DNA of 55,642 bases from a virus: positions 1 to 55,642 of the IMG/VR virus record IMGVR_UViG_3300048023_000226, one strand, 5' to 3'. The notes under the pieces were generated by a model. It saw only the letters and a list, made by a program, of their open reading frames with translations, did no database searches and was not told the DNA's origin. The position numbers were made by a program, and so were the translations under genes. Below, in pieces: positions 1,127 through 20,059 of the stretch; positions within the stretch are counted from its first letter, which is position 1; every line of letters starts with the position of its first letter.

Positions 1127-1152
1127 GGGAGTCTTCGGACTCCCTTTTTTTT
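1127..1152 (+). terminator. Rho-independent terminator after gp32 operon
   Basis: A perfect 7-bp stem (GGGAGTC/GACTCCC) with a TTCG tetraloop is followed by eight T residues. It ends the plus-strand gp32 unit. The T-run reaches the stop codon of the convergent minus-strand gene at 1151. Confidence 0.93.
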
Positions 1153-2752
1153 ATCTACCAAATGCTAAAATGTTTGGATCTGCACCGTCAGTTGAAGTGA
1201 CTCCGGTATGTACATGAGTTTCACCCCCGCCTCCACCTGAAGTGTTGGTTGAATTGTTACTGTTATCCTGTATAATTATTGGATTGTCGCTTGTTTTATT
1301 ATTCTCTTTTACTGCTTTATCCAATTCTGATCCAGTCATAGGTTTCACTGCGGCCGCATCTCCCTTCAGTATCGTTTCTCCCTTCAGTATATAATCAAAC
1401 CCCTTGGCGTTTTCCGACCCAGCTGCAAGTAATGCTAAATTTTTAGGAGCAAGTGTCTCTAAAACTCTTGCTATTATATCTCCCAACCATTCCCTCAGAT
1501 CTTTAAATGGTTTATTAATAGCAGTAAAGATACCTACAATTCCCTCGATGAAATCTCCAGATATTAATTTTTTAAATCCACCGATGAGATCTCCAAATAT
1601 ATCACTTGCATAGGTACCTATACTTTCAATTACACCAAATAATTTTTCGGATAATACCAAGTACATATCACTAAAACTAAAAGAGGAGAGATATTCTTGA
1701 ATTCCTTCGAACCCAAGTTTTCCAGAAATCCATCCAATTGCGCCCTTAACCATATCCAATAGATCAGTAACAAAAAATGTAAACAAGTCGTCAACTAAAT
1801 TTTTAAATGTGTCAAATATTCCAGATCCGCTTTTTATGCTATCGAATACTGACTTAACCGACACTATAATTCCTGCGATAGGATAAAATAATCTACCGGC
1901 AAGACCAGCAAAGGTTTTAAAAATACCGGAGAATTTCGACAGATATCCACCAACAGACTTAAATGTTTTTGTAATACTTTCAATAATTTTTCCTATAGGT
2001 CCTTTACCTTTACCCCCAAATAAGTCCTTCATAAATTGCAAGGCTTTACCTAATCTACCGTCTGGATTAATAGTGAATGCATTTTTTAAAGTTTTACCTA
2101 CACTAGAACCTATCTCCTTTATCCTAGTTCCAAGATTTTTTATCCCCTCAACGAAACTAATGAAAAGTCCTTGTACGGGACCTAGACGATTGGCTATGCC
2201 GCCCAGTAACTTTGTAACAGGGGTTAGATATGCCATGAAGGAACCGAAGGCAGCGCCGAGAGATGCGGCTAAGAGACCACCGATAAGTCCTACGGATCTT
2301 AACATTTCTCCTATTCTAAGACCTTCCTTTTTTGGCTCCGACTCATTCTTATCATCCTTTTTAGACTCTGAAAGAGCACGGATGGCATCTAACAAATCAT
2401 TCTGCCATTGTTGTTGCTCTCTCCGTTCTTCTAAAGAATCTCCTGTGGCGACAGGGTCTGGTCGAATCGGACCTACGAATGACGGATCTGGAGCTCTTTC
2501 AACGACTAAAGAATCTTTTTCAACAGAAACGCCCTTTTGCAGTTTGCGTCTAATGTAACCAAGATGACCAAACATTTGACTAAGGATATTTTCGCTACGA
2601 CCAGTACGCATGACAACGTCTTCCATAACAGCTATCAATCTGTCAGAATTATCAATATTCAATCTGTTCTGGTCGTATTGTCCCGATCTAACAGATGCCA
2701 TTTTTTGGTCAACTGATTTTAAGTTGTCGGACACTTCTTTGAGAGTAGACAT
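1151..2752 (-). CDS. Probable tail tape measure protein
   Basis: A 533-residue protein is the last gene of the minus-strand unit. The N-terminal ~75 residues are polar and helical. A charged segment (about 105-145) precedes hydrophobic, glycine-rich stretches at about 153-176 and 287-305, separated by amphipathic helices with repeated SVGKTLK/FKSVGGYLSK-like patterns. The tail is disordered and Gly-rich, ending near THVHTG. Long amphipathic helices with membrane-like segments are typical of tape measure proteins, which set tail length and pass through the tube. The length is close to the 590 residues of T4 gp29. The strongest contextual evidence is its place directly after a gp26-family chaperone with a frameshifted extension, the classic chaperone-chaperone-tape measure order of long-tailed phages. 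AAGGA lies upstream of the ATG. No direct gp29 sequence match was recognised, so another hub or structural role is possible. Confidence 0.6.
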   Translation of the reverse strand: MSTLKEVSDNLKSVDQKMASVRSGQYDQNRLNIDNSDRLIAVMEDVVMRTGRSENILSQMFGHLGYIRRKLQKGVSVEKDSLVVERAPDPSFVGPIRPDPVATGDSLEERREQQQWQNDLLDAIRALSESKKDDKNESEPKKEGLRIGEMLRSVGLIGGLLAASLGAAFGSFMAYLTPVTKLLGGIANRLGPVQGLFISFVEGIKNLGTRIKEIGSSVGKTLKNAFTINPDGRLGKALQFMKDLFGGKGKGPIGKIIESITKTFKSVGGYLSKFSGIFKTFAGLAGRLFYPIAGIIVSVKSVFDSIKSGSGIFDTFKNLVDDLFTFFVTDLLDMVKGAIGWISGKLGFEGIQEYLSSFSFSDMYLVLSEKLFGVIESIGTYASDIFGDLIGGFKKLISGDFIEGIVGIFTAINKPFKDLREWLGDIIARVLETLAPKNLALLAAGSENAKGFDYILKGETILKGDAAAVKPMTGSELDKAVKENNKTSDNPIIIQDNSNNSTNTSGGGGGETHVHTGVTSTDGADPNILAFGR

Positions 2753-2755
2753 TTA

Positions 2756-2944
2756 TTATCCTTGTTGTTTCGCCCTTTCGTTTTTCTCTTTGATGTCTTC
2801 TATCAACATCATTAAGTAGATCTCTCTCTCCCACGGAATCATTGTTTCGACCTCTTCCAGTGAGTAATTAAAGTTGTTAAGAAGCTGGAAGTTAACTTGA
2901 TAGTAATTTGTCAAGTTATCATGAGAGAGATTTACTAAAAAAAA
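2756..2944 (-). CDS. -1 frameshift extension of the gp26-family tail chaperone
   Basis: Directly after the T-run at the end of the gp26-family gene, the -1 frame is open for 60 codons, from TTA at 2938-2936 to TAA at 2758-2756, five bases before the tape measure ATG. The product reads LVNLSHDNLTNYYQVNFQLL and then NYSLEEVETMIPWEREIYLM, ending in a charged tail. It has no ATG near its beginning; the first is about residue 33, which would leave only 28 residues. Translation is therefore best explained by -1 slippage, giving a fusion of about 295 residues. The helical 'YSLEEVETMIPWEREIY' segment resembles the C-terminal extensions of frameshifted tail assembly chaperones (lambda G/GT type). The slip itself is inferred; initiation at an internal TTG is the alternative. 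Confidence 0.72.
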   Translation of the reverse strand, partial: FFLVNLSHDNLTNYYQVNFQLLNNFNYSLEEVETMIPWEREIYLMMLIEDIKEKNERAKQQG

Positions 2945-3642
2945 TCATCCATCCCCTTTAGTGTTCTTTCATTCGCATGGCCACAAGACGTACATTCAAA
3001 TTTAACATCTTGTGTTACGCTAGGAACCGAATTGATAAATTCAGATACTTTCGCAAACTGATCTGAAGTCATAGAGTCAATGAATTCTGACACGTCTTCT
3101 TTTGACTGATCATTCATAGAGATTCGTTCTTCGTCTGTCAACACTGCTTCCATACAAACGACTAATAACTCCCATAGACCCTCTGTCGTTGTTTCGGTAG
3201 ACAACAATGAATCATTGTTCAAGAACTCTTCATATGATGGATAACGCATCTGTATAGAAACACTATCAGTAATTTCGATCAGATTATTTGTTGTCTCCCC
3301 ACTCATCTTAATGTCATCAAGCTCAACCGAAACCTTATTTGCTTCACCGCATTCACTACATGATACCTGAATATCTGCGGATTCGCCTACCGACTTGGCA
3401 CGAATTTTTGTAAATAGATAGTCTACATCGAATGTAGTCAATGTACCTTCCAAAGGTTCTTCAACACAAGCGTCGATAGTTCGCAATATCGCACGTACCA
3501 TATCTTTGCGCTCTTGTGTTTCATATGCAATCAGGAGGTTTTTCTGTTCCTTTACTAGGAAAGGTCTAAATGTAGTCTTCTGTCCTGTAGACGGTACTTC
3601 AATGCTATAACTTGGGTTTTCATTCAGTTTTGGTAATGCCAT
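2935..3642 (-). CDS. gp26: gp26-family baseplate hub/tail assembly chaperone
   Basis: A 235-residue protein matches the T4_baseplate (gp26) family in its opening (a KEQKNLLIAYET-like segment near 31-42), overall size and two zinc-ribbon half sites: CSEC at residues 95-98 and CTSC at 217-220. The family is annotated as a baseplate hub subunit or assembly chaperone. The gene follows the tail-tube-like gene and precedes the tape measure gene. AGGA lies upstream of ATG at 3642. The 3' end carries an eight-T slippery run directly before TAG, so a minor product extended by 60 residues in the -1 frame is likely. That arrangement fits a tail assembly chaperone better than a purely structural subunit. 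Confidence 0.82.
   Translation of the reverse strand: MALPKLNENPSYSIEVPSTGQKTTFRPFLVKEQKNLLIAYETQERKDMVRAILRTIDACVEEPLEGTLTTFDVDYLFTKIRAKSVGESADIQVSCSECGEANKVSVELDDIKMSGETTNNLIEITDSVSIQMRYPSYEEFLNNDSLLSTETTTEGLWELLVVCMEAVLTDEERISMNDQSKEDVSEFIDSMTSDQFAKVSEFINSVPSVTQDVKFECTSCGHANERTLKGMDDFF
2937..2944 (-). promoter_or_regulatory. Slippery heptamer T TTT TTT for programmed -1 frameshift
   Basis: On the coding (minus) strand the last codons of the gp26-family gene are GAT GAT TTT TTT TAG. The eight-T run gives a perfect X XXY YYZ heptamer (T TTT TTT) placed immediately before the stop. A -1 slip there bypasses TAG and enters the 60-codon extension frame. Confidence 0.72.
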
Positions 3643-3662: not shown

Positions 3663-4283
3663 TTAAATTAATCCACCTAGATTTATATTGATACTAGGAT
3701 CAAACAACTCTCTTTCATCCTTGATTACTTCATAGTCGGTATATGAAAGTTGTACAGTACACTCGACCAATTGACCGTCATTAGACAGTGGGATTGCTGC
3801 AATAGATGTTGGAAACGCCTCTATTAGTTTTACACTGTATATAGACTTATTTCCCACATCTAGATTTATATCAAATGGACCTATATCGAATCCAAATCTT
3901 GCTAAAGGTTTTTGTAGTTGGCGAATGTTGACATCAAAGGTGTAGTTGTTCTTATAGTTAACCTCACCTCTTTTTATGTCGGTGTATATTAACTTGGTCC
4001 ATTCATCAAAGTATCTACGGACACCATAGTCATTCAGCACATAGAAAGTCATCGTGACATCCTCTACACCAAATCCATTCACCACCTTCTCTTGAAATAT
4101 ACCGACTGTCCTATCCAGGCTCATCATTTGACGGCCAGGCAGACTTACCTCTTTACATAAGACATTAAGTGTGTCCGATGAGGTATTCTTATCCAAGGTA
4201 GGTAGATTGACCGCGAACTGGTTCGCCATTGCGATACCATTCTTTGCTATCAGTTTACTTTTTAACTCTTCTATTCCTGCCAT
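3663..4283 (-). CDS. gp54: gp19-fold tail tube family protein, probable gp54 tube initiator
   Basis: A 206-residue protein carries the signatures of the T4 gp19 tail-tube family: LCKEVSLPGRQMMSLDRTVG, a VEDVTMTFYVLNDYGVRRYFDEW core and a terminal LSYTDYEVI strand. T4-like phages have two proteins of this fold: the tube itself (gp19), usually located after gp17-gp18, and the baseplate tube initiator gp54. This copy lies with hub-assembly genes, well away from the sheath region that should follow the window, so gp54 is the better guess. It is shorter than T4 gp54 (320 residues). It starts 2 bases downstream of its neighbour's stop, in the same unit. It could instead be the main tail tube protein. 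Confidence 0.7.
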   Translation of the reverse strand: MAGIEELKSKLIAKNGIAMANQFAVNLPTLDKNTSSDTLNVLCKEVSLPGRQMMSLDRTVGIFQEKVVNGFGVEDVTMTFYVLNDYGVRRYFDEWTKLIYTDIKRGEVNYKNNYTFDVNIRQLQKPLARFGFDIGPFDINLDVGNKSIYSVKLIEAFPTSIAAIPLSNDGQLVECTVQLSYTDYEVIKDERELFDPSININLGGLI

Positions 4284-4903: not shown

Positions 4904-4911
4904 TATTTATA
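4904..4911 (-). promoter_or_regulatory. T4-type late promoter (minus strand)
   Basis: A perfect TATAAATA on the minus strand lies 28 bases upstream of the ATG at 4876. It overlaps the last codons of the preceding gp4 gene, so it is an internal promoter for the downstream tail-tube, chaperone and tape measure genes. Confidence 0.75.
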
Positions 4912-5425
4912 CCGATTTTTTCTTCTTTCTGAACGGCGGTAGTTTCTTTAGTGGTTTTTTAGTACGCATACGTTGGGTAGACTTGGGCATGATACCCATA
5001 GCGGTGAGTTCGTTCTCTGTCCATATCTCAAAGTGATACCCTCTATCCTTTGCGTATTCGGATGCTGCCTTCCACTTGGATTGGTTCTTGACGTACGTCA
5101 TACCCTCGTTCAATAGAGTGTGACGGGACTTTCCCTGCTTGCGTTCAGGACGTAGGGTCTGCTTATGGGGTTTGACCTCGACCAGTACAACACGTCCAGA
5201 CTTGTACTTGATAACGAAGTCCATGAAGTATCGATGCGGCTTCTTATCAGTCTCACAGATGTAGGGGATTACCAACTCTTCGGACATCCATTGTACCACG
5301 TCCAGACTGTCATCACACCATTTCATAACGTGTCGTTCCCACCCCGAACGGTAGACGACATTGTCCACGTCCCCAGCATACTTCTCTGGGTTCTTTGGTT
5401 TGAACCGTCCTTTATATGTCTTCAC
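4907..5425 (-). CDS. gp4: Head completion protein gp4
   Basis: A 172-residue protein matches T4 gp4, which finishes the packaged head before tail joining and has a TnsA-like nuclease fold. The start KTYKGRFKPKNPEKYAGDV, then VYRSGWERHVMKW and the following HRYFMDFVIKY are characteristic. PD-(D/E)XK-type residues can be assigned as E30 (in SGWE), D69 (in YFMDF) and E83-V-K85 (in LVEVKP). The C-terminus is very Lys/Arg-rich. The gene overlaps the end of the upstream methyltransferase by 14 bases. Its length is close to T4's ~150 residues, with a basic extension. Confidence 0.9.
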   Translation of the reverse strand: MKTYKGRFKPKNPEKYAGDVDNVVYRSGWERHVMKWCDDSLDVVQWMSEELVIPYICETDKKPHRYFMDFVIKYKSGRVVLVEVKPHKQTLRPERKQGKSRHTLLNEGMTYVKNQSKWKAASEYAKDRGYHFEIWTENELTAMGIMPKSTQRMRTKKPLKKLPPFRKKKKSV

Positions 5426-7197: not shown

Positions 7198-7913
7198 TGT
7201 CATATTTTAAGAATTTCCCATTAAGCTTTTATTCCTTTGGCGACAGCGAAGAATCGGCTGTTGTCCAAAACATCGCAACCTATGTTGATATACTAGATGA
7301 TGTTAAAGGTAATTCAGCATTCTATCAAAACTATTATGTTCAAGGTGGAGAAAGACCAGATCAGACTGCGTTTACTTTATATAGAAATCCTCATATGCAC
7401 TGGACATTTTATTTAATGAATGATAAGATACGTGAACAGGGTTGGCCTCTAGAATATAGCGGTGTTGTAGAAAAGGCAAAATCGGATTACTCGAACTTTA
7501 CTATAACAACCACCGGACCTATACACGATACATTTACTATAGGCTCTACCATAACTGGGGGTGATAGTAACGCGACGGGTACTATTGTACATAAGAACTT
7601 GGACCTAGGTCAAATCGTAGTTAAGTTATCAAGTGCTTTAGAATTCCATGTGGCCGAGGTTGCCATATGTGAGGGTGATATGGTTACTGTAACTGGGGCG
7701 TCCAAAGAATATCTTGCAGCGAACCATTATGTACTTAATAATGAAAGAGTCGATCTTGATCTAAGTAATATGAGTGTTCCTTTAGGTGCAGTTCCAAAAA
7801 CCAATCTAGATTTCTATATTGAAGAAAATGATAAGTTGAAACAGATACGTGTTATTAAACCGTCGTCTATCAACACTATTCAAACATTGTTTAATGAAGC
7901 ATTGAGATCGTAA
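7197..7913 (+). CDS. gp53: Baseplate wedge protein gp53
   Basis: A 238-residue protein with clear gp53 features: YQNYYVQGGERPDQTAFTLY, then RNPHMHWTFYLMND and GWPL, matching the T4 'YY..G..RPE..A..IYGNP..YW.L...ND...GW' pattern. The C-terminal ENDKLKQIRVIKPSSIN also matches. gp53 joins the wedge to the hub. An extra beta-rich insert of about 70 residues (near 98-175, with TIGSTITGGDSNATGTIV) lies between these conserved ends; T4 gp53 is 196 residues, so this phage's protein is extended there. It overlaps both neighbours by one base, in a tightly packed operon. Confidence 0.9.
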   Translation: MSYFKNFPLSFYSFGDSEESAVVQNIATYVDILDDVKGNSAFYQNYYVQGGERPDQTAFTLYRNPHMHWTFYLMNDKIREQGWPLEYSGVVEKAKSDYSNFTITTTGPIHDTFTIGSTITGGDSNATGTIVHKNLDLGQIVVKLSSALEFHVAEVAICEGDMVTVTGASKEYLAANHYVLNNERVDLDLSNMSVPLGAVPKTNLDFYIEENDKLKQIRVIKPSSINTIQTLFNEALRS

Positions 7914-9235
7914 TGAGTGATAAAGCCCCAGCAGAACAGGACTTTTCTGATAACCTTTCTATACAGCGTGTATTACTTGAAACTTCTGCTTCTAAACCAA
8001 CTATTGAGATATCCAGTACAACTAGTGGGATAGACATTTTTGAACACCTCGACAAACCTTATCTAACTGCCGCACTGGCATACGTTGATCAAGAAGATAT
8101 AATTGGATCATTAGATATTTCAGGTGGTGAGAAAATTACTATAGATCTGAAGAGTATGCAGAACAGTTCAACACGAGTTGTTTCCAAAACATTCTTTATT
8201 GATAAGATAGTCAGCGCTGATAAGACATCGGATAATGTAGAGATGTTCGTCTTTCATCTGATCGAAGATATCGGATACCTATCTAACCTACACAATTTGA
8301 ATAGATCCATGAGTGGCAAGCCTAGTGCTATTATCTCGACTATATCTAACGAGTTCTTTTCAAAAGATATTAAGAGTTCATCTACTGACTTTCAATCAAT
8401 GAAGGTCATTGTACCTAACTTAACTCCGATAGAGGCTATGTGTTGGATTAAGAACCGCGCATCGACCAGTGACGGGTATCCATTTTATTTGTACTCGACC
8501 TTAGTAGATAAAGAGTTAAACTTCAATGATCTCCGAAGCATGATGACAGGAATAAAAATAAATCCAGATATGCCTTTCACCTTTTCAGAAAGCGCATCTG
8601 GTAATGATGAACAACCTACAGTCGCTCGCAATAGAACAATAATGAGACATCAAGCTAAGAACACCAACAATATATTTGGATTGATTCGCGAAGGTATGGT
8701 AGGGTCCAAGTATTCTTATGTAGATGTAACTAAGAATAAGGTTGTAGACTTCGATTTTAATATCGATAATGAAGTTGTTAAGTTACTAAGACAAGATAAA
8801 ATTGTTAATAAGGGTACTCCTATATTTGATAGTTCTAGGCTAGATGATACGAAGGGTGATATTACTAGCAGAAAGATCACACAGATAGGCGGTACAAACG
8901 CATACGATACACAAAAGTCTTACATGGAAAGTGAAACCAGTGGACAGTATAAACTTAATATCGTCAATCGATCAATGGCGTATATGTTGACTAATAATAA
9001 GATAGACATAATCGTTGACGGTGTTGAATTCCTAGACGGAAACGCGAACAAGACTATCGGTAACAAGATCGATATACGGTTTTTACGTAATACCAACACT
9101 GAGCAAAAAGACAGAATATATGATAGAAAGAAGTCGGGTGATTTTTTAATCTTCGCATGTAAACATACAATATCCCCAAGAACATATACACTAACTCTAT
9201 CTGCTATGAAACTATCTAATGGAGAATTGTTATGA
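7913..9235 (+). CDS. gp27: Baseplate hub protein gp27
   Basis: A 440-residue protein, longer than T4 gp27 (391), located directly before the gp5 spike gene as expected for the gp27 hub ring that carries it. The N-terminal half resembles the beta-barrel domains of gp27/gpD-type hubs (IEISSTTSGIDIFEHLDKPY, then TFFIDKI). A helical AIISTISNEFF and a PIEAMCWIKNRAS segment follow, typical of hub proteins. The C-terminal region ends in strands (FLIFACKHTISPRTYTLTLS) consistent with the last barrel. The gene overlaps gp5 by ATGA, implying coupled translation of partners. Confidence 0.83.
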   Translation: MSDKAPAEQDFSDNLSIQRVLLETSASKPTIEISSTTSGIDIFEHLDKPYLTAALAYVDQEDIIGSLDISGGEKITIDLKSMQNSSTRVVSKTFFIDKIVSADKTSDNVEMFVFHLIEDIGYLSNLHNLNRSMSGKPSAIISTISNEFFSKDIKSSSTDFQSMKVIVPNLTPIEAMCWIKNRASTSDGYPFYLYSTLVDKELNFNDLRSMMTGIKINPDMPFTFSESASGNDEQPTVARNRTIMRHQAKNTNNIFGLIREGMVGSKYSYVDVTKNKVVDFDFNIDNEVVKLLRQDKIVNKGTPIFDSSRLDDTKGDITSRKITQIGGTNAYDTQKSYMESETSGQYKLNIVNRSMAYMLTNNKIDIIVDGVEFLDGNANKTIGNKIDIRFLRNTNTEQKDRIYDRKKSGDFLIFACKHTISPRTYTLTLSAMKLSNGELL

Positions 9236-11755: not shown

Positions 11756-13609
11756 ATGACTATTAATTCATCTGACTTAGATTTCTATGATATCAAGTCT
11801 AAACTAAAGACGTACTTCAAACAAAGTGATGAGTTTGCAGATTATGACTTTGAGGCAAGTGGGCTGTCTAATATTATGGATGTGCTGGCATACAATACAC
11901 ACGTCAATGGTCTTATTGCAAACATGTCAATCAATGAATCGTTCTTGAGTACATCTCAATTACGTTCATCCGTCGTATCTCATGCAGAGAGTCTAGGGTA
12001 TTTCCCTACATCGATGACTGCAGCTCGTGCGGTGGTAGATGTTGAAATAACAGTATTGAATAATGCGCCCACATCTTTACCACTAAATGCAGGGTCCAAG
12101 TTCTTCGTCACAATCGACGAAACTAACTATGAGTTCTTTACACTACAAACCTATGAAGCGATTAATGATACCACAGGTAAGTTTGTATTTCCTAATGTAA
12201 CACTAGTAGAAGGAAAAGTCAAGACAAAAACTTTCTTGGCTGATAGTAATATAGATGTACCATACGTCATATCAGATAATAATATAGATGTTTCTACTAT
12301 GTCTATATCGGTATTCCCTAACGGAAACTCAAGCGAGTCTAATAGTTATTTCAATATAAAAGAAGTTGCGACGATTACCGATCAATCTCGTGTTTACATC
12401 GTACGCGAATCAATGAATGGTTTTTATGAAGTATTGTTCGGTGACGGTAATGTGCTTGGTCAGCGACCACAAGCAGGTAATATAATTTCAATCGAGTATA
12501 TCTCTACCTCTGGGGTAGAGGGAAATGGTGGTTCTGAATTCAACCTGAATGAATATACGGGAGAAGACTACTCGACTAATATATCTTTGGTATCTGCATC
12601 AGCGGGAGGTTCTTCCCGTGAGTCTATTTCTCAGATCAAGATGAACGCGCCTCTGGCATTCTCTGCACAAAACCGTTTGGTTACTGCTGACGATTACACG
12701 GGTATGATCATGAGTAAATATGGTAGTTATTTAAGAGACGTTTCAACATGGGGTGGTAATGATAACATACCCCCACAATATGGTAAAGTTTTTGTTAGTT
12801 TAAATTTTGCTGACGGTATAAATGAAGAATCCAAAGCTACGGTTGAGAACTTGATCCGTAGTCAGTTGACATCCAACTTATCTATTATGTCTATAGATAC
12901 AGAATTCGTCAATCCTGAAATTACTTATTTGGAACTAGTTACTAGATTCAATGTTGATCCAGTCAAGAATATTCCTGCCTCACAATTAGAAGTTGCGGTC
13001 GAATCTATTATTACTGAATATACAAATTTGACATTGAGTTCATTCGATTCATCATTCAGACGATCTAATCTATTAACTCTGATAGACAATCACTCCAACG
13101 CAATCCTAAACTCTAAGATGGAAGTCAAAGTTCAACAACGATTGGACATCGATTCTATAGTTACTGATTTAAATGTTGCTAGAAAAGCACTAGATCCTCA
13201 GTCAGAAGACTTGACTTTTTTGGAAAAAGACTTTACAATAAACTACCCAGTCGTTATCGCTTCGCCAGATAAAGATGATCATATTATTCAATCGTCTATG
13301 TTTAAGTGGTATGATAAAAACGTATTTGTTAGAAATGAACTGGGGTCTACCCGATTACAATTGTTTGATGTCAACGGAGATGTCAAATTAAGCAATGCAG
13401 GTTTCTATGATGCAGCTAAAGGTACCGTGAATCTCAGGGCCCTTCGTATTGATGTAGACGGTTACTTGAGCAGCGGATTAAAAATATCTGCAACTCCAGC
13501 CAACCAGAGCACAATATCCCCGCTGAGGAATTACATCATAAAACTAGACTCAAGTGGATCTACAGTAATCAGTAATACAGAGCAAGGGTCTACTAAGGTC
13601 TTATTATAA
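11756..13609 (+). CDS. gp6: Baseplate wedge protein gp6
   Basis: A 617-residue protein matching T4 gp6 (660). The N-terminal part has the conserved DLDFYDIKSKLKTYFKQSDE, then SGLSNIMDVLAYNTHVNGL, MSINESFLSTSQLR and AESLGYFP. The central baseplate-J-like part includes FFTLQTYEA, FYEVLFGDGNVLGQRPQAG and VTADDYTGMIMSKYG. gp6 forms the continuous ring that holds the wedges together. The order gp25-gp6 and one-base spacings are as in T4-like phages. It overlaps the next gene by one base. Confidence 0.94.
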   Translation: MTINSSDLDFYDIKSKLKTYFKQSDEFADYDFEASGLSNIMDVLAYNTHVNGLIANMSINESFLSTSQLRSSVVSHAESLGYFPTSMTAARAVVDVEITVLNNAPTSLPLNAGSKFFVTIDETNYEFFTLQTYEAINDTTGKFVFPNVTLVEGKVKTKTFLADSNIDVPYVISDNNIDVSTMSISVFPNGNSSESNSYFNIKEVATITDQSRVYIVRESMNGFYEVLFGDGNVLGQRPQAGNIISIEYISTSGVEGNGGSEFNLNEYTGEDYSTNISLVSASAGGSSRESISQIKMNAPLAFSAQNRLVTADDYTGMIMSKYGSYLRDVSTWGGNDNIPPQYGKVFVSLNFADGINEESKATVENLIRSQLTSNLSIMSIDTEFVNPEITYLELVTRFNVDPVKNIPASQLEVAVESIITEYTNLTLSSFDSSFRRSNLLTLIDNHSNAILNSKMEVKVQQRLDIDSIVTDLNVARKALDPQSEDLTFLEKDFTINYPVVIASPDKDDHIIQSSMFKWYDKNVFVRNELGSTRLQLFDVNGDVKLSNAGFYDAAKGTVNLRALRIDVDGYLSSGLKISATPANQSTISPLRNYIIKLDSSGSTVISNTEQGSTKVLL

Positions 13610-18626: not shown

Positions 18627-19181
18627 ATGTTTACAGTAATTGATAATTTTTATGCAGATCCCGACTCAGTTCGGGATTATGCTTTAAGTCTAGACTTTAA
18701 TGTTTCGGGTAACTATCCCGGCCTAAGAACATCTCCATGTACCAATGCTGGTGGATATGTTGATTCTATGAAAAACTCTTTAGAGGGGATCATAGGAAAA
18801 GCAATAACATACTTTCCACTAGACAACTATAACACTTCCTTCCAATACACTACCGAAAACTGCAAGACATGGATTCATCACGATAAAATGTCCTATGCGG
18901 GAGTCGTGTATCTAACGCCTGACGCGCCTCTAGATTCCGGAACTGCAATCTATAAACATAGACAGACTGGAATTATGAAACATGAAGATTCATGTCCAGT
19001 AGATTTTAATGAATTCCAGTTGGTTGAAGGTGACTGGGACATTGTTGCAGAATCTAAAAATATTTACAACCGACTGGTATTATATGATGCGATGTACTAT
19101 CATCGCAGTGTAGTTCCCGGCTTTGGTTCAAACCAATACGACGGTAGATTATTTCAGACATTCTTCTTTGAGGCAGAATAA
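18627..19181 (+). CDS. DUF6445-like putative 2OG-Fe(II) oxygenase
   Basis: A 184-residue protein with the layout of small double-stranded beta-helix oxygenases: WIHHDKMSYAGVVYLTP supplies an H84-x-D86 pair, GTAIYKHR follows, and YYHRSVVPGFG supplies H159 with R174 in GRLFQTFFF as a possible 2-oxoglutarate anchor. This is the pattern of phage DUF6445 proteins. Its substrate is not known; immediate linkage to a collagen-like fibre and a glycosyltransferase suggests fibre hydroxylation (inference). I chose ATG 18627, with an AGG-type site upstream, over the in-frame TTG at 18585, because the TTG follows the fibre stop directly and would put the GAAA hairpin inside the coding region. It overlaps the next gene by one base. 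Confidence 0.75.
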   Translation: MFTVIDNFYADPDSVRDYALSLDFNVSGNYPGLRTSPCTNAGGYVDSMKNSLEGIIGKAITYFPLDNYNTSFQYTTENCKTWIHHDKMSYAGVVYLTPDAPLDSGTAIYKHRQTGIMKHEDSCPVDFNEFQLVEGDWDIVAESKNIYNRLVLYDAMYYHRSVVPGFGSNQYDGRLFQTFFFEAE

Positions 19182-20059
19182 TGAAATTGATGACAACGTT
19201 GTTGACTTCCAACGACATCCCTAAGTTAGCACGATTAGTTAAATCTGCCCAACAAGTCATCAAAATTGAACCAATCGAATGGGAAGTGGTGATCGTTGTA
19301 AATAGTATTCATGAAGGATACTATGAAGATGTATGCGCACTTAATTTACCATTCCGTGTAGTCAATACGGAAAGTAATGGTAAACCAGGCCGTGGTAAAA
19401 ATGCATGTCTAGATGTATTTCTAGAAAGTGACTGTGATTTTGTATCTCAGATCGATGGAGATGATTTTTTATATCCGTCATACTTACAGTCGTTGTGGAA
19501 TCATTATAAGCATTATCCTTGCATTGATGTTCTAGGTGTGGTACCATGTGATTCTATTTGCAGTTGGGAATTGGTTTCGGGACATTACTGGCAAGTTAAT
19601 GAAACTTACTTTGCAAGTGTATGGGGCACATCGATGTGCTCTCCTCACGAAAACTTAGGACCACAAGAAAGTCATTTGTTTATTGATGAACGTCCAGTGT
19701 CGGTTGACTTCATTATGTTGCAGAGTCGTAAGTCTGCACAAATAAAAATGAACGAAGATATTGGTAACGGAGAAGATCACGCATACACCTACAAGTTATT
19801 AGCAGAACACCAGAAGGGAAATCTGTGTTACTTCCTATCAATGTCAAGCGACTTATATTGTATCGATAGGACGACTGAAGGAAGTGCTCAGAAGGTTCAT
19901 AGTTACGAAGAATATTTACAGCCGCTGAAGGACGAAGCACTTAAACATGTCTCCCAGTGGAGAAGTAGTGCATATGAACTTCCGGTAATATACAAAGACT
20001 TATTGATGAATCATCATCAAAAAGAATCATGGTTAAACAAATTTTTAAATGACTCATAA
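19181..20059 (+). CDS. GT-A glycosyltransferase (family 2-like)
   Basis: A 292-residue glycosyltransferase. The N-terminal Rossmann-like part has VVIVVNS and then NTESNGKPGRGKNACLDVFL, followed by the nucleotide-sugar/metal motif QIDGDDFLYP (D92-G-D94-D95). A later NGEDHAYTYKLL (E198-D199) fits the acceptor-side catalytic ED motif of GT2 enzymes. There is no membrane segment, so it should act in the cytoplasm on a protein or soluble acceptor. It overlaps the oxygenase-like gene by one base, is in the same unit as the collagen-like fibre, and is followed by a fresh late promoter. Glycosylation of the fibre is the contextual guess; host surface glycan modification is an alternative. Confidence 0.83.
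   Translation: MKLMTTLLTSNDIPKLARLVKSAQQVIKIEPIEWEVVIVVNSIHEGYYEDVCALNLPFRVVNTESNGKPGRGKNACLDVFLESDCDFVSQIDGDDFLYPSYLQSLWNHYKHYPCIDVLGVVPCDSICSWELVSGHYWQVNETYFASVWGTSMCSPHENLGPQESHLFIDERPVSVDFIMLQSRKSAQIKMNEDIGNGEDHAYTYKLLAEHQKGNLCYFLSMSSDLYCIDRTTEGSAQKVHSYEEYLQPLKDEALKHVSQWRSSAYELPVIYKDLLMNHHQKESWLNKFLNDS

Follow-up and report, generated by a model that had tools for sequence, protein, structure and literature searches.

The gp26-family gene of this phage ends in a run of T close to the start of a putative tape-measure gene, which raises the question of whether it encodes one protein or, by a ribosomal frameshift, two. In the window (the whole 55,642-nt stretch of DNA that was analysed), the gp26-family open reading frame, the extension that follows it in the −1 frame and the tape-measure gene are all on the minus strand (Table 1), and PHROG matches on both sides define the order tube, chaperone, tape measure. 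The 3′ end of the gp26-family gene reads GAT TTT TTT TAG, as the first-pass annotation had stated, and the T TTT TTT heptamer is contained in an 8-T run (2937–2944) that extends into the stop codon. The −1 frame was also correctly described there as open for 60 codons and closing just before the tape-measure ATG: the extension codons occupy 2938..2759, the TAA stands at 2758..2756 and the ATG at 2752, leaving a gap of 3 nt. Joining the extension (LVNLSHDNL...AKQQG) to the 235 residues of gp26 yields a predicted long form of 295 aa (TAC-NC) with the slip junction DFF-LVNLSHDNLTNYYQVNFQ. The statement that the extension has no usable ATG is true in substance, its first ATG being codon 32, within the conserved domain; a TTG is present at codon 8, and relatives vary in having it. 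Elsewhere in the window, positions 4907–5425 (minus strand) encode a TnsA-like endonuclease N-terminal domain (PF08722, E 5.4e-21), where the gene of phage C48C1 is annotated as head closure.

Table 1. Features of the gp26-family locus in the window and the evidence for each.
Feature	Position	Strand	Evidence
Tape-measure-like gene	1151..2752	−	phrog_1272 tail length tape measure, E 7.8e-9
−1 frame extension, 60 codons + TAA, gp51-like C-terminal domain	2756..2938	−	phrog_634, E 1.5e-22
Candidate hairpin, 8-bp stem, 19 nt 3′ of the heptamer; uncertain	2893..2918	−	group fold z; weak covariation
gp26-family gene, short form (TAC-N), 235 aa, stop TAG	2935..3642	−	PF12322 T4_baseplate, E 1.4e-58; phrog_150, E 2.1e-59
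Slippery heptamer T TTT TTT, in phase with the gp26 frame	2938..2944	−	sequence
SD-like AAGGGG, internal, 8 nt upstream of the heptamer	2953..2958	−	sequence; duplex energy −8.5
Tail tube gene, directly upstream of the gp26-family gene	3663..4283	−	phrog_45 tail tube, E 6.8e-29

Among 39 chosen window genes (18,092 codons), T TTT TTN occurs in phase four times, and only the gp26-family heptamer sits in the last codons of its gene. The other three fall inside the genes at 7913–9235 (near 9142), 11756–13609 (near 13216) and 19181–20059 (near 19465). The length of the open −1 frame was also tried as a chance control and proved uninformative, with 11 of the 39 genes running on to the 200-codon limit; taken alone, this length is unremarkable in the window because many following genes occupy the −1 frame.

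Relatives were collected from IMG/VR contigs and named phages, giving 297 loci and, with the window, 298 sequences. T4 (L003), which had no gp26 match at E 1e-3, was dropped together with eight others that end before or within 60 nt of the gp26 stop, leaving 289 sequences, 238 of them distinct. An in-phase TTTTTT followed by C, T or G, starting 7, 10 or 13 nt before the stop, is found at the gp26 end of 237 of the 238 distinct relatives, and in the same 237 the −1 frame is open for 55–65 codons. The heptamers are TTTTTTC at −10 (159), TTTTTTT at −7 (65) and TTTTTTC at −7 (6), with TTTTTTT at −10 (3), TTTTTTC at −13 (2) and TTTTTTG at −10 (2) as rarer types. The single miss, L102, was excluded from later statistics; it is 99% identical to the HTVC008M gp26 query and carries a nonsense codon in the middle of gp26 (near position 1687). 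This nonsense codon is either a sequencing error or the mark of a broken gene. The alignment of homologues that the first-pass annotation had proposed as a check therefore shows the T-run to be kept, and the arrangement that it had named as contradictory, a broken T-run before a downstream frame that keeps a start codon, occurs in none of the 238.

The heptamer and the open −1 frame occur together in all 18 named relatives, which comprise cyanophages and Pelagibacter, Vibrio, Rhizobium, Pseudomonas, Xanthomonas and Aeromonas phages; in these 18, the +1 frame shuts 1 to 13 codons past the gp26 stop. Searched against viral contigs, the Vibrio gp26 query returned no relatives and the Rhizobium gp26 query one. 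As judged from the letters of the DNA, the combination of heptamer and open −1 frame is beyond chance. Aeromonas phage PX29 (L093), which belongs to the Straboviridae by classification, has the frameshift layout and not the two-gene layout of T4, and may mark the point at which the arrangement switched.

For statistics the relatives were grouped into 58 clusters at 70% identity, with independence of clusters assumed in the tests of codon choice and of SD-like pairing. The codon preceding Phe-Phe ends in T in 58/58 clusters, whichever of Asp, Ser, Asn or Ala it encodes. TTT also encodes the first Phe in 58/58 clusters, as compared with 63% TTT elsewhere in gp26 (402 TTT, 238 TTC). Stops over all 58 clusters number 0 in the −1 frame versus 117 and 122 in the other two frames. 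In 17 clusters with TTTTTTT adjoining the stop, variant letters within the first 18 codons of the extension are distributed over codon positions 1, 2 and 3 as 37, 25 and 114.

The best surviving alternative is that the −1 frame constitutes a small gene in its own right (gp51), translated by reinitiation or from its own start codon after the gp26 stop. Several relatives have the layout that this predicts. An ATG lies within the first 10 codons of the −1 frame in 18 of the 58 clusters; P-SSM2, P-TIM68 and S-SSM7 have one just past the gp26 stop, annotated in GenBank as the start of a separate gene, and in Vibrio D484 (TAATG) and Rhizobium I1_9 (TGATG) the stop shares bases with the annotated ATG, as is typical of translationally coupled genes. 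Reinitiation could therefore add a short separate product in such relatives. Yet 37/58 clusters have no ATG within the first 18 post-slip codons, and 16/58 have no ATG, GTG or TTG there, while the stretch is under selection at the protein level: in the 16 start-less clusters, pN/pS is 0.46 with 0 stops in the −1 frame, versus 1.23 and 1.41 with 33 and 42 stops in the other two frames (pS is near saturation in this test). Selection that acts in the −1 frame before any start argues that the region is translated as a continuation of gp26, so that the extension would be made as part of a fusion rather than from a start of its own; this comes from 16 of the 58 clusters, and the window itself has the TTG at codon 8. 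A separate gene also leaves the in-phase heptamer unexplained. No −1 stop occurs between the heptamer and the ATG in any of the 58 clusters over 18 codons, the SD-like GGAGGG of P-SSM2 is about 24 nt before the annotated ATG, far for initiation, and in T4 the extension domain is made only as the C-terminal part of a long protein. A separate gene is thus judged improbable.

Frameshifting by the ribosome would be favoured by stimulatory elements around the slip site. Frameshift signals of the dnaX type have an internal Shine-Dalgarno sequence about 10 nt upstream, and a comparable spacing is seen in the window (8 nt) and at the group peak. Group mean anti-SD pairing peaks in windows of 10 nt beginning 18, 15 and 12 nt upstream of the heptamer (−5.74, −6.01 and −3.71), and pairing at −5 kcal/mol or below is found in 44 of the 58 clusters. 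Over a 21-nt stretch the observed mean is −6.18 versus −5.20 after synonymous resampling, with 0 of 200 trials as low; at eight upstream control positions the observed minus the resampled mean ranges from −0.43 to +0.75. The strength of the SD-like pairing therefore comes mostly from conserved residues, with a smaller part in excess of them.

Downstream of the heptamer, on the side where dnaX-type signals have a stem-loop, the group mean fold z (45-nt windows) is −1.29, −1.50 and −1.17 at +7, +12 and +17, and between +0.31 and −0.72 at the remaining 23 of 26 offsets. For the window alone, fold z is −1.75 to −2.22 at +12 to +22, yet reaches −2.78 at −30, −2.91 at +120 and −2.41 at +240; the hairpin of the window itself is therefore not singled out. 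The P-SSM2 cluster (38 distinct sequences) has a hairpin right after the slip site that is 92.8% paired, with changes on both sides at 2 of 11 pairs. The window-type hairpin, counted in 41 of 44 distinct sequences (the three left out are of the HTVC008M type), has 71% of cells paired and changes on both sides at 4 of 8 pairs, a weak covariation. Consensus folding of all 58 clusters gave no common downstream RNA structure (−1.4 kcal/mol), nor did that of the 41 non-window-type clusters (−1.3); for the 17 window-type clusters it gave −15.1, mostly from the covariation term, and the helices include five pairs of the window hairpin.

The long form could also arise at the level of transcription, if RNA polymerase slipped on the 8-T run and the resulting mRNAs were a mixture, some of them in the −1 frame. 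The window and its window-type relatives do have the 8-T run, but most relatives (167 of 237) have TTTTTTC, with six T in the same phase. Polymerase slippage would be unlikely on six T. The strict codon phase of the heptamer and the SD spacing suit a ribosomal signal, and polymerase slippage is regarded as very improbable.

The identity of the extension provides a further line of evidence for translational fusion. As listed in Table 1, the extension of 60 residues hits phrog_634, annotated 'baseplate hub assembly catalyst' (gp51); a second hit is the end of phrog_150 (E 4.9e-8). With tblastn, 938 phage records match the extension at E up to 1, including the C-terminal part of gp51 in Straboviridae (such as Phi1 and a Klebsiella phage). 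When the 58 predicted long forms were made into a profile, it aligned end to end, over 249 columns, with that of six Straboviridae gp51 proteins (E 2.4e-29), and the extension profile alone aligned with gp51 columns 199–255 (E 6.7e-11). T4-type gp26 and gp51 profiles match each other at E 2.3e-23, and the group gp26 profile matches T4-type gp26 at E 6.7e-30; all of these E-values are from single profile comparisons. The matches between the long form and gp51 indicate that T4-type gp51 corresponds to the long form carried as a gene of its own.

Copy number was examined in 11 records, namely T4 and 10 of the frameshift type (a 137-kb contig, G001, with the window's gp26, a 151-kb contig and eight named phage records). 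The extension alignment used (A6: 25 of 41 available extensions, the window and five gp51 ends) overlaps some of the records searched. Each of the 11 has one significant match to the extension domain. In T4 the domain sits inside the gp51 frame (a 277-aa open frame), and in the other ten it lies in an open frame of 60–83 codons. Vibrio D484 has a second extension-profile match at E 0.009, with two stops inside. The window record and G001, both of which may be fragments, each have a single extension match, in a 62-codon open frame. A full-length gp51 profile found a full-length match in T4 only; matches were partial, gp26-like or extension-like, in eight of the other records and none were seen in two. 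No second gene able to supply the long form was found in the 10 frameshift-type records. That such a fused gp51-like gene lies elsewhere, with the −1 frame here a mere remnant, draws on T4 and its close kin, which carry separate 26 and 51 genes, and on the window record being a 55,642-base fragment, but it is hardly credible against the single domain copy in each frameshift-type record, the full-length gp51 match confined to T4 and the selection acting on the −1 frame.

An AlphaFold2 model of the window gp26 (m2fdf982f6561) has a mean pLDDT of 87.6. Foldseek found no match for it in the PDB at E 0.001 or better (HK97 chaperone, E 2.2). When the candidates were realigned, 3fgx_A scored Z 8.1 over 84 residues and 2ob9_B, the HK97 tail assembly chaperone, Z 7.5 over 82, values in the range where the tool warns of a possible common arrangement; the next row was at 2.8. 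Both match gp26 model residues ∼1–95, so the likeness is limited to the N-terminal ∼95 of 235 residues, with 8% identity to 3fgx and 13% to 2ob9. The model thus suggests, with moderate confidence, an HK97-like chaperone fold for the N-terminal part of gp26. The model of a Straboviridae gp51 had no structure match above Z 4.9, and no chaperone match was seen; its C-terminal part is predicted, at lower confidence, to form helices at 206–221, 226–230 and 234–248. Matches of the gp26 model in BFVD include Bacillus, Campylobacter, Ralstonia and siphovirus-labelled proteins, and the gp26 family is therefore wider than sequence families show.

Taken together, the conserved signals, the coding selection in the −1 frame, the homology to gp51, the single copy, the gene order and the chaperone-like predicted fold make it very probable that the locus encodes tail assembly chaperones from a single gene with two readings, a short form and, via −1 frameshifting, a long form. 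That slippage occurs, how often it does so and that the products act as chaperones are what we infer from these features. Most ribosomes would stop at the TAG and release the 235-aa gp26 short form as the major product, and a minority would shift back by one base at T TTT TTT and continue to the TAA at 2756, producing the 295-aa long form as the minor product. The upstream SD-like sequence, 8 nt away, probably aids the slip, as does a downstream hairpin in many relatives. With tRNA-Phe in both sites, T TTT TTT would offer the simplest route of slippage; in the window clade, a single tRNA slipping at the stop codon could yield the same product. The long form would end in a small helical domain, the same as that at the end of T4 gp51. 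In phage lambda, gpG is the major short form and gpGT the minor long form; G coats the tape measure and the T part recruits tube subunits. By analogy, the short form here would coat the tape-measure protein and the tail of the long form would recruit tube subunits. Work by Levin in 1993 and Xu in 2004 is said to cover lambda gpG/gpGT and other frameshifted tail assembly chaperones. A frameshift of the lambda G/GT kind before the tape-measure gene, with gp26 as a tail assembly chaperone, had been proposed in the first-pass annotation and is supported by the comparative test.

Its suggestion that such a frameshift was undescribed in T4-type phages does not stand as written. A 2022 paper by Vladimirov et al. 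(Virology 566:9–15) reportedly names tail chaperones of T4-like phages in its title. PMC12846349 credits Vladimirov et al. with polyT −1 signals in the TAC-N genes of T4-like phages, and PMC10885494, citing the same authors, states that some T4-like phages have one short and one longer fused gene replacing frameshifting. Going by these citing passages, identification of the proteins as chaperones is therefore already in print, and so, probably, is frameshifting in part of the group. A supplementary table of mass-spectrometry peptides suggesting frameshifts is indicated in PMC13119998, a paper on Klebsiella T4-like phages. The listings and passages covered by the literature search contained no account of this frameshift for cyanophages or for other T4-like phages of marine origin, and the passages of PMC9024508, PMC11131426, PMC9603447, PMC10448857, PMC12671138, PMC12859696 and PMC13119998 do not concern this site. 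What the present analysis contributes is breadth, together with the test for selection, the signals of the SD-like and hairpin type and the test for a single copy. It is conceivable, although rather doubtful, that the −1 frameshift, with its SD-like stimulator, T-TTT-TTN slip and often a hairpin, is ancestral across the T4-like supergroup (cyanophages and Pelagibacter, Vibrio, Rhizobium, Pseudomonas and Aeromonas phages), that T4-type gp51 is a later fused second gene replacing recoding, and that this is unpublished at such breadth.

None of the 18 frameshift-type phage records inspected has the joined gene annotated. The extension has no GenBank gene in S-CAM1, S-MbCM6, S-SSM6b, ACG-2014d and ACG-2014b (L084, L085, L086, L094 and L099), and in P-HM2, C48C1 and HTVC008M its gene is annotated from a codon inside the domain. 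The short and erratically annotated 'gp51' of cyanophages and other marine T4-like phages would then be the end of a frameshifted chaperone, and many phage records could be corrected. The hub proteins gp26 and gp51 of T4, whose roles have long been obscure, could then be tested for a chaperone role toward the tape measure gp29. Both are listed as hub assembly chaperones in PMC3004832, and PMC9024508 mentions proposals of chaperone or cofactor roles for them. The listing in PMC3004832 fits the chaperone reading; the statement in the same paper that genetic studies support gp26 within the hub does not.

The locus shows homology to the T4 gp26/gp51 family in both of its products, the short form to gp26 and the predicted long form to gp51. 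T4 has separate genes 26 and 51 on opposite strands, whereas in the window phage one gene and its −1 frame would give both, so that related phages appear to make a two-protein chaperone by two routes: one group uses recoding, T4 a pair of genes. A separate full-length gp51 gene as in T4 was not found in the window record or in G001, and the eight named phage records agree. The chaperone frameshift of Vandenendeviridae/Andersonviridae (phage Adele), according to PMC12846349, likewise combines a −1 signal of polyT type, where the short frame ends, with an open −1 frame up to the tape-measure gene; these are other phage families, and the likeness is one of signal and frame layout. With the lambda G/GT kind the window locus shares its position between the tail tube and tape-measure genes, the conserved in-phase heptamer and the open overlapping −1 frame. 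It differs from lambda in that the short form is longer, with a further β-rich part in the model, and in that the heptamer abuts the stop codon in the window clade.
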